Source: a virus
Length of the DNA: 37,279 nt
Strand: one strand, 5' to 3'
Virus record (IMG/VR): IMGVR_UViG_3300028794_000014
Coordinates: 1 to 37,279 of that record
Shown: positions 5,913-19,770 of the stretch, piece by piece
How positions within the stretch are numbered: position 1 is the stretch's first letter
How the letters are laid out: every line of letters starts with the position of its first letter
The notes under the pieces: model-generated
The model's input: the letters and a program-made list of their open reading frames with translations, nothing else
What the model was told of the DNA's origin: nothing
Database searches by the model: none
Program-made: the position numbers and the translations under genes

Positions 5913-6689
5913 CTACGCAGCAGCCTTCGCGCTGATCGCGTCCAGAACGGCGTCACGAATTTCTTGGAATGCTGCCGACTCTGCTGCCGACCATGCTGCC
6001 GACCGTGCTGCCGACTCTGCTGCCGACCATGCTGCCGACCGTGCTGCCGACTCTGCTGCCGACCATGCTGCCGACTCTGCTGCCGACCATGCTGCCAACT
6101 CTGCTGCCGACCATGCTGCCGACCGTGCTGCCGACTCTGCTGCCGACCATGCTGCCGACTCTGCTGCCGACCATGCTGCCAACTCTGCTGCCGACCGTGC
6201 TGCCGACCGTGCTGCCGACCATGCTGCCCCATCAGGGCTATCGCCTCGGATCGCTGCTTCGTGCAGATCAATCACGGCCTGCACGACAGGCTGCGCAGAT
6301 CCGGCGGTGTGGTAGGAAACCCGGAGGATGCCGATGTGGACGCGATGAAGCGTTTCCTGCCAGTTGATCACGCCGCCACGTGAGGCGATGGCCTCGGCAA
6401 GCTGAACGTGCCATTCGGCGCTCTCGCCGTTCGGCAAGCCTTCGAAGATCGTATCCTGGAGCAGTGCGAGCCATTCCGGGTAGCCGTAATAGTCGGCGAC
6501 GATCTTGTGCTTGTGGGAGAGACCATCAATAGCGCCAGCGCTCAGACCGGGCTTGATGTGCGCCAATAGACAACCAACTGAACAGCCGCGGAACTCGCCG
6601 CTCACATCGTTGCCATACGTGCCCTTCAGCAGCATGTCCGCCGCGTAGTGAATCTTCGCCTGCTCCAGAAGTTCTATATGCTTTTCCAT
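5913..6689 (-). CDS. phage protein with Ala-rich 4-residue tandem repeat
   Basis: 258 residues. Residues 1-~153 form a normal globular domain (KIHYAADMLLKGTYGN, CSVGCLLAHIKPGLSAG, YYGYPEWLALLQDTIFEGLP). Residues ~155-239 are 21 copies of a 4-residue unit x(S/L)AA with x = W, R or E, read from a 12-bp DNA repeat. A short helix follows (FQEIRDAVLDAISAKAAA). The repeat is predicted as a long Ala-rich helix with Trp, Arg and Glu on one face. The start has AGAGGA 8 bases upstream. Similar WSAA/ESAA repeats occur in other phage and bacterial proteins. Their role is not known to me. Confidence 0.8.
   Translation of the reverse strand: MEKHIELLEQAKIHYAADMLLKGTYGNDVSGEFRGCSVGCLLAHIKPGLSAGAIDGLSHKHKIVADYYGYPEWLALLQDTIFEGLPNGESAEWHVQLAEAIASRGGVINWQETLHRVHIGILRVSYHTAGSAQPVVQAVIDLHEAAIRGDSPDGAAWSAARSAARSAAELAAWSAAESAAWSAAESAARSAAWSAAELAAWSAAESAAWSAAESAARSAAWSAAESAARSAAWSAAESAAFQEIRDAVLDAISAKAAA
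5971..6228. repeat. 12-bp tandem repeat array, about 21.5 units
   Basis: Plus-strand units are GCTGCCGACTCT, GCTGCCGACCAT, GCTGCCGACCGT and GCTGCCAACTCT, in phase without interruption. The array lies inside the gene at 5913-6689 and all six frames stay open through it. Units at 6043-6126 and 6127-6210 are an 84-bp duplication differing at one base (a CAT unit versus a CGT unit), which points to recent slippage or unequal exchange. Confidence 0.97.
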
Positions 6690-7498: not shown

Positions 7499-7527
7499 GT
7501 TGTCTCACACGGTGTGACAGCCGTCAA
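7499..7527 (-). promoter_or_regulatory. leftward early promoter with embedded operator
   Basis: Minus strand: TTGACG (7527-7522), 17-base spacer, GACAAC (7504-7499). Inside the spacer lies the 19-bp imperfect palindrome 7501-7519 (plus strand TGTCTCACACGGTGTGACA). The order TTGnnn-GC-operator-AC is the same as in the rightward promoter at 8812-8840. Repressor binding here would block the whole leftward operon. Confidence 0.65.
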
Positions 7528-7533
7528 GCGAAA

Positions 7534-7592
7534 TGTTTCATCCGGTGTGACAATGAATTGACGCGGCCAGAATCGAGGCGCATATATCCAGC
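7534..7592 (+). promoter_or_regulatory. operator and promoter of the wHTH gene
   Basis: TGTTTCATCCGGTGTGACA at 7534-7552 is a second operator copy, 16 of 19 bases identical to the one at 7501. Just after it, TTGACG (7558-7563), 17 bases, then CATATA (7581-7586) form a promoter whose transcript would start at or beside the ATG at 7593, where no Shine-Dalgarno sequence is visible. Confidence 0.5.
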
Positions 7593-7922
7593 ATGCGAAA
7601 TGAGCCAGAATTATCCGAAGCGGGCCAATGGTACCGCGACCGCGACGAGTGGATTCGTCATATCCTGGGCAGGCCATATCTCACGGCAGACTGCCAGCGC
7701 GTGGCGATCTTCATTGCCATGCACATGAACCGGAAGGACAACCACACGAAGCACCAGCAGAAGACGATAGCGAAGGATCTGAATTTGAACCCTTCGACTG
7801 TCAAAAGAGCTGTTGGGAAATTGATGGACGAGGGCCTAGTCGACCGCGAGCAGGTGCAACGCGGGAGGCGAAACAGAGCGGTAAATCACTACCGGCTGAT
7901 TTTCGCTTGGCAGGCGCTCTAG
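7593..7922 (+). CDS. winged helix-turn-helix DNA-binding protein
   Basis: 109 residues. Residues ~45-95 are a wHTH: HQQKTIAKDLNLNPSTVKRAVGKLMDEGLV is the helix-turn-recognition helix, followed by a basic wing (REQVQRGRRNR). It resembles the N-terminal domains of phage replication initiators and MarR/GntR-like regulators that are usually longer. The frame stays open for 70 codons after the TAG at 7920-7922, so this could be a shortened replication protein. Two 19-bp direct repeats begin at its last codons. The transcript may be leaderless. Confidence 0.75.
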   Translation: MRNEPELSEAGQWYRDRDEWIRHILGRPYLTADCQRVAIFIAMHMNRKDNHTKHQQKTIAKDLNLNPSTVKRAVGKLMDEGLVDREQVQRGRRNRAVNHYRLIFAWQAL

Positions 7923-7964
7923 AGTGCACCAGCGCCCCCTTGGCAAGAGTGCACCAGCGCCCCC
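7921..7964 (+). repeat. two 19-bp direct repeats, 25-bp period
   Basis: AGAGTGCACCAGCGCCCCC occurs at 7921-7939 and again at 7946-7964. The period of 25 bp is not a multiple of three, so the repeat is not coding. Located right after the wHTH gene and before an AT-richer stretch (about 7967-8000), it could be an iteron-like binding site. Confidence 0.75.
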
Positions 7965-8206
7965 CCTAATAACGGTAGGCTTAATAACGATACTATTACG
8001 AAGAAGGAAGATCTTGCTCTGAGGGGAGTAATTGGAAGGGTGGGACAGTGTTTCGAAAGCAGAGAATCCAAGGGCGAAAAATCGCCTCCCGATCTGGAGC
8101 ATCTGTTAACCATCAGCCAGAGATTTGTCCGGTAACGTACATTCGAAGTTGCTAAATCCTTAAAACGGTCCAGTTTCAAAAGAAAAAACCCTAGAGGGAA
8201 ACCAGA
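7923..8206 (+). other. gene-free stretch after the wHTH gene
   Basis: 284 bp without a convincing gene. It holds the direct repeats, an AT-rich segment, and a reading frame continuing from the wHTH gene after its TAG for 70 codons (SAPAPPWQE... to ISQRFVR, stop near 8133-8135). The AT-rich part plus repeats could be a replication origin. The open frame could be a relic of a longer initiator. Nothing here decides between these. Confidence 0.4.
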
Positions 8207-8419
8207 ATGCCGACGAGACGGGAATTAATTCGGACAATAGCCGGCGGCGCTGCCGCGTCGACGATCAGCCTGCCGCGCATTTCTCAAGCAAAAACACTAG
8301 ATATGTGTCGACGGGAAGCCAGCAACCTGGCAATCACCATGCGCCAGCTTACGGGCGGCCAATGGCGCGTCACCGTCGACAAGGATCTGGAATTCGTGCT
8401 GATCTCAAAAGTTCTTTAG
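8207..8419 (+). CDS. small exported protein with Tat-like signal
   Basis: 70 residues. The N-terminus PTRRELIRTIAGGAAASTIS has a twin-arginine followed by a moderately hydrophobic Ala/Gly stretch and a plausible cleavage site after ISQA, a typical short Tat signal. The mature part would be only ~42 residues (MCRREASNLAITMRQLTGG...VTVDKDLEFVLI). GAGGG lies about 8 bases before the ATG. Its stop overlaps the repressor stop on the other strand by 3 bases. Its place inside the immunity region suggests expression in the lysogen, perhaps in superinfection exclusion or lysogenic conversion. This is inference. Confidence 0.6.
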   Translation: MPTRRELIRTIAGGAAASTISLPRISQAKTLDMCRREASNLAITMRQLTGGQWRVTVDKDLEFVLISKVL

Positions 8420-8751
8420 TCGTCGGTTCCGGTGAGGGCCTGCAGAACGCGGATGGCCTGCGCTCGATTTTTATCATTGATCAGCCGCATCAGGTCGACG
8501 ACCTCACCCTCCTTGAACGGGTCGACGCTCAGCAAATCAGTTACGCTACAGTTCAAGGCCGCGGATAGCGCCTCAAGGATCGGCTGAGAATATGGCTGAT
8601 CACCGGTCTCGATCCGGCCAAGGCTGGCATGAGAAATGCTGTCGTTCGGCCCCGTGATCTCTAAACGATCAGCCAGGCGCCGGAGCGAAAGCCCGCGGTA
8701 TTTCCGCCATTCACGGATAAACGTCTTGCCATATGTGCGATCTGTGCTCAT
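8416..8751 (-). CDS. short XRE-family phage repressor (CI-like)
   Basis: 111 residues. Residues ~12-68 are an XRE/Cro-CI HTH: FIREWRKYRGLSLRRLADRL, then SHASLGRIETGDQPYSQPILEALSAAL and NCSVTDLL. After it comes a short helical tail (VVDLMRLINDKNRAQAIRVL). There is no S24 peptidase domain. The ATG at 8751 has no Shine-Dalgarno and sits 7 bases after a TATTAT box, so the mRNA is probably leaderless, as for lambda cI. It is divergent from the Cro-like gene with operators between them. Confidence 0.85.
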   Translation of the reverse strand: MSTDRTYGKTFIREWRKYRGLSLRRLADRLEITGPNDSISHASLGRIETGDQPYSQPILEALSAALNCSVTDLLSVDPFKEGEVVDLMRLINDKNRAQAIRVLQALTGTDD

Positions 8752-8803
8752 GCAAAAAATAATATCACGTCCCATGTAACGCGTGGTCACAGCCGATGTG
8801 ACA
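8752..8803 (-). promoter_or_regulatory. repressor promoter and two operators
   Basis: TATTAT on the minus strand (8764-8759) is placed so that transcription would begin at the repressor ATG. Its -35 region (near 8789-8784, TGACCA) is weak, as expected for an activated maintenance promoter. GGTCACAGCCGATGTGACA at 8785-8803 matches 14 of 19 positions of the 8820 operator. TATCACGTCCCATGTAACG at 8763-8781 matches 12 of 19. Confidence 0.5.
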
Positions 8804-8811
8804 GAAAACGC

Positions 8812-8847
8812 TTGCGCGCTGTTACATCCGGTGTTACAACTAATTTT
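8812..8847 (+). promoter_or_regulatory. rightward early promoter with embedded operator
   Basis: TTGCGC (8812-8817), 17 bases, TACAAC (8835-8840). The operator TGTTACATCCGGTGTTACA occupies 8820-8838, in the same geometry as the leftward promoter. The predicted transcript starts at or next to the ATG at 8848, which has no ribosome binding site. Confidence 0.65.
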
Positions 8848-9081
8848 ATGAGCACAGAACAGCACCCCCTCATCGCGCATCTGCAAGCCAAAGGCGAGAC
8901 GCTTACCGGCTTCGCCAAAGGCATCGAAATGAGCCGCATGCAGCTATATCGGATCATGGATGGCGAGAGCACTACGCTCACCACCCTGAGGAAGATCAGC
9001 GCTGCGACCGGCGGGGCTGTCCCTGTATCTGCGTTCCTCAGCACCGATGACAACACAGCCTCATCGGAGGCCGCCCAATGA
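8848..9081 (+). CDS. Cro-like HTH protein
   Basis: 77 residues. The core ETLTGFAKGIEMSRMQLYRIMDGE...TLRKISAATGGAVPVSAFL is an HTH of the XRE/Cro type with unusual wording. It is the first gene of the rightward operon, divergent from the repressor, so a Cro role (early repression of the repressor and of the early promoters) is the natural reading. A longer in-frame start exists at 8812 but would lie inside the operator. The first 11 bases of the gene (ATGAGCACAGA) are identical to those of the repressor gene. Confidence 0.75.
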   Translation: MSTEQHPLIAHLQAKGETLTGFAKGIEMSRMQLYRIMDGESTTLTTLRKISAATGGAVPVSAFLSTDDNTASSEAAQ

Positions 9082-9653
9082 TTTACTTCATCGAATGCAG
9101 CGGCCGCGTGAAGATCGGTTTTTCTCTCGACCCGAAAAATAGGCTCAGCAAGGTGTCGGCAGATTCGCCGTTCCCTTGCTCTCTTCTCGGCGCCGTCGAT
9201 GGGGACAGGAACGAGGAATTTAGGCTGCATGGCATATGGAGCCATCTCCATGCCCACCGCGAATGGTTCATCCTGGCGGCAGATCTTCGGGAATGGATCG
9301 ACGGAAACGTCTTTGATCCTCCTGCGAGTCTTCCCCATCGAGGCAAGAAAACGGTATGCGGCGTCCCGGTAAAGCATGGGATGAAAAAGGCTATCGCTGC
9401 TGGGTGCGGAGTGACTCCCGCGACGGTTTCTCAGTGGCATAAAATCCCCGCTGAATACTGCGGTGTGGTGTCGAAAATAACTGGCGTGCCAATTTCGCAG
9501 ATTCGTCCTGACATCTTCCCGGGCGTTGACCAGAGCACCGTTTCAAATTGGGAAACCGGGAAAGGCCCCCGCGGCCCAGCTCGGAAACTTCTGCTTTCCT
9601 TGAAGCCTGCGGATTTCGCCCAAGCCGATGCAGCTCGGGAGTCCGCGGCATGA
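9078..9653 (+). CDS. T5orf172/GIY-YIG domain fused to HTH domains
   Basis: 191 residues. Residues 1-~75 match the T5orf172 (MUG113) branch of the GIY-YIG fold: MIYFIEC..RVKIGFSLDPKNRLSKVS, a strand-helix with DRNEEFRLHGIWSHLHAHREWF. Residues ~100-150 look like a YdaS/Cro-type HTH (MKKAIAAGCGVTPATVSQWH..PAEYCGVVSKITG). A third segment QSTVSNWETGKGPRGPARKLL is the second half of a classical XRE HTH. A nuclease-like domain on two HTH pieces suggests a sequence-specific DNA-binding protein. It overlaps the Cro-like gene by ATGA. Confidence 0.75.
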   Translation: MIYFIECSGRVKIGFSLDPKNRLSKVSADSPFPCSLLGAVDGDRNEEFRLHGIWSHLHAHREWFILAADLREWIDGNVFDPPASLPHRGKKTVCGVPVKHGMKKAIAAGCGVTPATVSQWHKIPAEYCGVVSKITGVPISQIRPDIFPGVDQSTVSNWETGKGPRGPARKLLLSLKPADFAQADAARESAA

Positions 9654-19160: not shown

Positions 19161-19219
19161 ACCTACAATCTCAACCATTCAACGTCTCAGCCTATCTCAG
19201 GGAGGGAGAGGAACAATGA
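19157..19219 (+). CDS. 20-residue linking ORF
   Basis: Encodes MNLQSQPFNVSAYLREGEEQ. Its ATG overlaps the stop of the PAPS-reductase-like gene (ATGA at 19157-19160) and its TGA overlaps the ATG of the GcrA-like gene (ATGA at 19216-19219). AGGGAGGGAGAGG inside it is the ribosome binding site for the next gene. Overlaps on both sides argue for translation as a coupling cistron. Confidence 0.45.
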   Translation: MNLQSQPFNVSAYLREGEEQ

Positions 19220-19770
19220 ACGTCCACACGAAAGTCAAGCACGGCAATCAGGTTGCCTGGGATGACGAGACAAAGCGCAAAATGGCTACCATCTGGAATG
19301 ATGGTGGATCGGCATCGCTGATCTCAGCAAGATTCGGGTTGTCCCGCACGGCGGTTCTCGGGCTCGTTCATCGCAATCCCCGGCTCTTCAAGTCGAAGAA
19401 AACAGATACCCCACGCTACTCAAGGACCGGCGGACGGAAGCCGGTTTCGAAGATGTTCGGTGAGGATAGGCCAAAGCCCAATCACGCGCAGTTGGGCAAC
19501 AAGGCCAAGAACACTCGCAAAGCTCGTATGGAGGCCGTACAGCGCGAGGCCGCAGAATTCCAGTCCGGGACATCGCCTATGCTTCAGATCGCGCCAGACG
19601 ACGCCGACAGGCTGAATACAGGCAAGGAGATGATCGATCTTGCCCGCAATGAATGCCGCTTTGGCCTGAACAACAGCCACCCGTTCATTTTCTGTGCTGC
19701 CCCGACCGAAGGCGCTGTCTACTGCCCACATCACTCCATGCGAGCATATGTCATCAGGGAGGCTCGCTGA
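19216..19770 (+). CDS. GcrA-like cell-cycle regulator
   Basis: 184 residues. The N-terminal HTH (VAWDDETKRKMATIWNDGGSASLISARFGLSRTAVLGLVHR) and the C-terminal ending (ARNECRFGLNNSHPFIFCAA....YCPHHSMRAY) are the two conserved parts of GcrA. In alphaproteobacteria GcrA binds RNA polymerase sigma70 region 2 and activates promoters carrying methylated GANTC sites. The basic linker between them is normal for the family. A phage copy could redirect host cell-cycle transcription or activate phage genes. The start follows a strong GGGAGG site. Confidence 0.85.
   Translation: MNVHTKVKHGNQVAWDDETKRKMATIWNDGGSASLISARFGLSRTAVLGLVHRNPRLFKSKKTDTPRYSRTGGRKPVSKMFGEDRPKPNHAQLGNKAKNTRKARMEAVQREAAEFQSGTSPMLQIAPDDADRLNTGKEMIDLARNECRFGLNNSHPFIFCAAPTEGAVYCPHHSMRAYVIREAR

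Follow-up and report, generated by a model that had tools for sequence, protein, structure and literature searches.

In bacteriophage lambda, operators lie about 24 bp apart, CI activates the PRM promoter from about −42, and the repressor's peptidase domain permits its cleavage; three full operators per arm are a property of lambda itself and not of every lambdoid switch. Among rhizobial phages, the temperate phage 16-3 possesses the immC system, which consists of a C repressor and operators (PMC10460002). The isolates RHph_Y1_10 and RHph_N2, both phages of Rhizobium etli, carry a switch homologous to the one described here, and its operators are unannotated in their records (MN988487 and MN988533, respectively). 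No publication describing these operators was found in the open, non-subscription literature searched.

The locus considered here lies in a window of 37,279 nt, the whole stretch of viral DNA that was analysed, and is a genuine, well-conserved switch whose general kind is well known and which shows some unusual traits. The region is very probably the immunity region of a temperate phage laid out on the lambda plan, with Rhizobiaceae or close relatives as its presumed hosts. Its features are given below, where class A denotes loci whose repressors carry a 7-residue insert in the helix-turn-helix (HTH).

7499–7526, minus strand: PL, predicted leftward early promoter; −35 TTGACG (7526–7521), 2 nt, OL1 as spacer, −10-like GACAAC (7504–7499)
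7501–7519, plus strand: putative operator OL1, TGTCTCACACGGTGTGACA; 0 mismatches, 22.1 bits; in every class A relative
7534–7552, plus strand: putative operator OL2, TGTTTCATCCGGTGTGACA; 0 mismatches, 25.1 bits; OL1 to OL2, 33 bp
7558–7586, plus strand: Pmid, predicted rightward promoter right of OL2; TTGACG-17-CATATA, separated by 6 nt from the ATG at 7593
7593–7922, plus strand: winged-helix gene of MarR/HTH_36 type (Pfam and PHROGs), resembling phage replication-initiation proteins in their N-terminal part
8207–8419, plus strand: gene for a small protein whose N-terminus is twin-arginine-like; convergent with cI, the two genes sharing 4 bp at their 3′ ends
8416–8751, minus strand: gene for a cI-type repressor of 111 aa, with an HTH into which 7 residues are inserted and, C-terminal to it, a predicted long helix; lacks a peptidase domain
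8758–8803, minus strand: predicted PRM; −10 TATTAT, OR2 end 20 nt upstream, −35 region ACCACG
8763–8781, plus strand: possible half-site, TGTAACG, together with the PRM −10 region; 4 mismatches, 12.2 bits
8785–8803, plus strand: putative operator OR2, GGTCACAGCCGATGTGACA; 2 mismatches, 22.8 bits
8812–8840, plus strand: PR, predicted rightward early promoter; TTGCGC, 2 nt, OR1, −10-like TACAAC
8820–8838, plus strand: putative operator OR1, TGTTACATCCGGTGTTACA; 0 mismatches, 27.2 bits; OR2 to OR1, 35 bp
8848–9081, plus strand: cro-like gene encoding 77 aa; TTACAA lies 8 nt upstream of its ATG; weak HTH_3 match (0.012)
9078–9653, plus strand: second early gene, directly downstream of cro; fusion of a MUG113/T5orf172-like N-terminus (MUG113 0.0018) and a YdaS/Cro-like domain (YdaS_toxin 1.3e-8)

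The assignment of four 19-bp sites as operators of the predicted CI-type repressor is supported by their sequence, their position and their recurrence. An earlier, sequence-only reading of the window had listed five operators sharing one pattern, and its coordinates and sequences proved correct when the window was re-read. Three of the five match TGTnnCAnnCnGTGTnACA exactly (7501–7519, 7534–7552 and 8820–8838), with two mismatches at 8785–8803 and four at 8763–8781. Three exact sites and four sites with two or fewer mismatches within 1.4 kb were obtained in none of 200 Markov-1 simulations of 37 kb, where sites with two or fewer mismatches averaged 0.34 per simulated sequence and never exceeded one per 1.4 kb. 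When the window was scanned with a weight matrix built from 30 operators of relatives, its own sites excluded, OL1, OL2, OR2 and OR1 took ranks 1–4 (22.1–27.2 bits), and the runner-up place scored 13.4 bits.

The fifth listed site, at 8763–8781, did not hold up as a full operator and is possibly a half-site. With the same relatives-only matrix it ranks sixth in the window, within simulated noise. The strongest rival to the four-operator reading is that the arm is a lambda-like one with three operators, in which this site is a true OR3 exerting negative control of PRM. The site does overlap the predicted PRM −10, and a GTnAC half-site occurs at the equivalent place in seven of nine distinct OR regions, but a match with four or fewer mismatches has an 8.5% chance of arising within 100 bp, and the half-site is shifted by one base in some relatives. 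Moreover, the full site is not conserved (0.79 bits per column, versus 0.95 in the OR1–OR2 spacer, across the nine OR regions), and the invariant TA found there is accounted for by the PRM −10. A functional OR3 is consequently judged unlikely, albeit the least unlikely of the rivals considered here.

A scan of the window found no consensus sigma-70 promoter, and the putative −10 elements, which are TACAAC-like, are non-consensus. The putative PL has the same layout in every class A relative, with TTGAC, 2–3 nt, OL1 and then a TACAA-type −10, and at PR the TTG of the −35 lies exactly 8 nt upstream of OR1 in 10/10 loci. The formula TTGnnn-GC-operator-AC, initially proposed for both arms, survives in a looser form: TTGnnn, 2 nt, the operator and an A are common to both, and the “GC” and the final “C” vary in relatives. 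The element preceding cI in class A is of TATnnT type and is a candidate PRM −10; in all class A members it lies 20 nt from OR2, with ACG adjoining the operator, and the start of cI lies 32–33 nt from OR2 in class A loci. By position only, the centre of OR2 falls at about −42 relative to this predicted −10. A Cro-like protein is encoded at the equivalent place in every class A locus examined, 6–8 nt separating TTACAA from the ATG, and both cI and cro mRNAs are predicted to start within about two bases of the ATG and are probably leaderless.

The sequence-only reading omitted a rightward promoter, the predicted Pmid, that is flanked by OL, and OL probably serves two divergent promoters, Pmid and PL. 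The Pmid spacer contains GAATC (GANTC) at 7570–7574, present at the same place in six of nine distinct class A relatives and in a locus with different operators (L020), and GcrA/CcrM-type control of Pmid is possible. A GcrA homologue is encoded at 19213–19770 (PF07750, 2.1e-14). Across the phage as a whole, GANTC is depleted, with 68 occurrences observed versus 139 expected.

The divergent HTH genes described from the sequence appear cI-type and cro-like, the latter having only the weak HTH_3 match. The repressor scores above the Pfam gathering cut-offs for HTH_31 (1.6e-8, 35.2 bits; cut-off 27) and HTH_3 (1.5e-7, 31.8 bits; cut-off 23), placing it in the HTH_3/XRE (Cro/C1-type) family. Pfam returned HTH models only for its 111 aa, and a C-terminal S24 peptidase domain is absent. 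An AlphaFold2 model (mean pLDDT 78, with the C-terminal half at low confidence) shows the HTH and one long helix; a Foldseek search with this model returned general HTH matches alone, with 0 at E ≤ 0.001, and relatives of solved structure are likewise general HTH proteins, such as SinR and ClgR. The label “lambda-like” accordingly suits the layout of the locus and not its induction: because the repressor lacks the peptidase domain of lambda CI, exit from lysogeny must use a route other than CI self-cleavage, which raises the question of how such prophages are induced. No integrase was identified within the 37,279-nt window, and the RHph_Y1_10 record annotates one.

Relatives of the repressor occur in viral contigs, in the Rhizobium phages RHph_Y1_10, RHph_N2, RHEph18 and, more distantly, RHph_I1_23, and also in Rhizobium sp. 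J15 and Aureimonas sp. ME7. Apart from the window, the same four operators are present in eleven further class A loci, among them those of RHph_Y1_10, RHph_N2 and Rhizobium sp. J15. The OR1–OR2 distance, start to start, is 35 bp in all 12 loci with the window included (nine different OR sequences), the OL1–OL2 spacing is 32–34 bp in class A loci, and OR2 reads GGT...GTnACA in all class A members. When nine diverged OR regions were aligned without gaps, the invariant columns fell almost solely on the operator core (GT..C, GT.ACA), the −35 TTG and the PRM signals; outside the core and the TTG they comprise the CGT adjoining OR2, a single A following OR1 and the TA within the PRM −10. When the pattern was searched for in the genome and its relatives, a check proposed in the sequence-only reading, the four sites recurred; across eight viral records, a relaxed form of the operator pattern matched nowhere but at the immunity region, and its reversed control gave 0 matches. 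The companion claim, that one repressor controls both arms, is favoured by the finding of the four sites in the same predicted promoter positions in all clade members found. Class A operators are confined to one repressor clade (SH-aLRT 97), although the tree was built from all kept columns, HTH included, so that some dependence remains between clade and operator class.

No close relatives were found with the Cro-like protein in viral contigs or with CI alone in genome contigs, and a CI alignment search did find relatives. Among the loci read in 396 genomes around Rhizobium sp. J15, the four-site class A switch is present in J15 only. An operator-pair scan of viral contigs returned two known relatives together with L023, L026 and L027, which are repetitive, unrelated by sequence and were rejected.

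Where a related repressor has a different HTH, the corresponding places hold different repeated words. In class B, represented by Rhizobium phage RHph_I1_23 (MN988556) and L007, the C-terminus of cI is homologous, the gene order is the same and the OL pair is 33 bp apart, but the HTH lacks the insert, the operator words are GACTGAA and Cro is of YdaS type. The window's cI matches that of L007 at 89% in its C-terminal part and 47% in its HTH part, versus 87% and 75%, respectively, for the class A locus L005; at the DNA level, the window is similar to class B over 8012–8610 and to class A over 8416–9014. The 4-bp overlap between the small gene and cI is also found in class A, in class B and in the L040/L042 type. 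It thus appears that, while the 3′ end of cI and the convergent small gene persist, the HTH is exchanged along with the operators and cro as one cassette inside a conserved chassis. The OL pair is 33–35 bp apart in L007, L030, L015, L017, L021 and L022 despite unrelated operator words, with distances of 24 bp in L020 and 26 bp in L019. Counterparts of the winged-helix gene in L015–L022, 78–89% identical, likewise lie next to different operators.

This exchange bears on a second rival, in which the Cro-like protein or a host regulator chiefly binds the four sites, the 111-aa HTH protein having its role elsewhere. Covariation with the operators is also seen for Cro-like proteins, but operator class tracks the repressor's HTH, other HTHs being accompanied by other words in the same places, and confinement of the sites to the immunity region in eight viral records is unlike the distribution of general host regulator targets; this alternative is therefore considered quite improbable. 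Shared ancestry of a young sequence block, without selection of the repeats as operators, is already disfavoured and exceedingly improbable, for although all carriers fall in one repressor clade, CI identity extends down to about 50%, the DNA between sites has diverged and the operator core is invariant in 30/30 of the relatives' sites.

It is also conceivable, if tentative, that temperate phages of rhizobia have a fixed switch chassis in common, within which whole cassettes of HTH, operators and cro swap by recombination inside cI; the OL spacing would be kept even where the operator words are unrelated and where one repressor is short and the other bears a peptidase domain. Such a chassis would comprise leftward and divergent leaderless promoters, each with two operators at a distance of 33–35 bp, together with a repressor whose C-terminus is conserved and a convergent gene for a secreted-type protein that overlaps the repressor gene. 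The natural exchange of HTH and operators represents a ready-made specificity-swap experiment.

Several neighbouring genes merit mention in their own right. The 8207–8419 protein is kept among phages of differing repressor specificity, and its fold search gave a single significant match, an unnamed viral protein. L015, L017 and L019–L022 have near-identical winged-helix genes and OL regions with very different repeated operator words, and several of them have full-length repressor-like proteins of about 200–270 aa. On the minus strand at 5913–6689, the window also encodes a protein with a long stretch of alanine-rich AAWSAARSAAESAA-type repeats.

In the repressor–operator reading preferred here, the 111-aa protein would bind, as a dimer, 19-bp inverted repeats with the half-site TGTnAC[A/G]. 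OR1 would separate the −35 of PR from its −10, as OL1 would at PL, and because both operators fill the spacers, bound repressor should exclude RNA polymerase. OR2 would sit near −42 of PRM, the position from which lambda CI activates, and a dimer there would thus probably stimulate cI. Same-face contact of adjacent dimers is not favoured by the 35-bp OR spacing, which corresponds to about 3.3 helical turns. OL2, 33 bp from OL1, borders the predicted rightward promoter of the winged-helix gene and probably helps shut both PL and Pmid. Following infection, the Cro-like protein, as the product of the first PR gene, probably competes for the same sites, and exit from the prophage state would proceed through something other than repressor self-cleavage. 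The analysis provides a defined operator code, TGTnACR-N5-YGTnACA, and a set of predicted promoter positions for a group to which isolated phages of Rhizobium etli belong, making superinfection immunity and repressor specificity directly testable in a laboratory rhizobium.

Compared with known systems, the TGTnACA repeats of the window are unlike the operators of phage 16-3, which are 434-like, the comparison being one of descriptions. RHph_Y1_10 and RHph_N2 are alike in their homologous cI (73%), Cro-like gene, four operators, OR spacing and convergent small gene with its 4-bp overlap with cI; unlike the window, they have no winged-helix gene at this place. With lambda, the locus shares divergent HTH genes of cI and cro type that enclose operators, a further set of operators at PL, operators within PR and PL, the layout of early operons to left and right and, relative to the predicted −10, an operator centred near −42 of PRM. 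It differs from lambda in having two full operators per arm versus three, a spacing of 33 and 35 bp versus about 24 bp, a CI that lacks the peptidase/tetramerisation domain, and an OL that faces an additional predicted rightward promoter.
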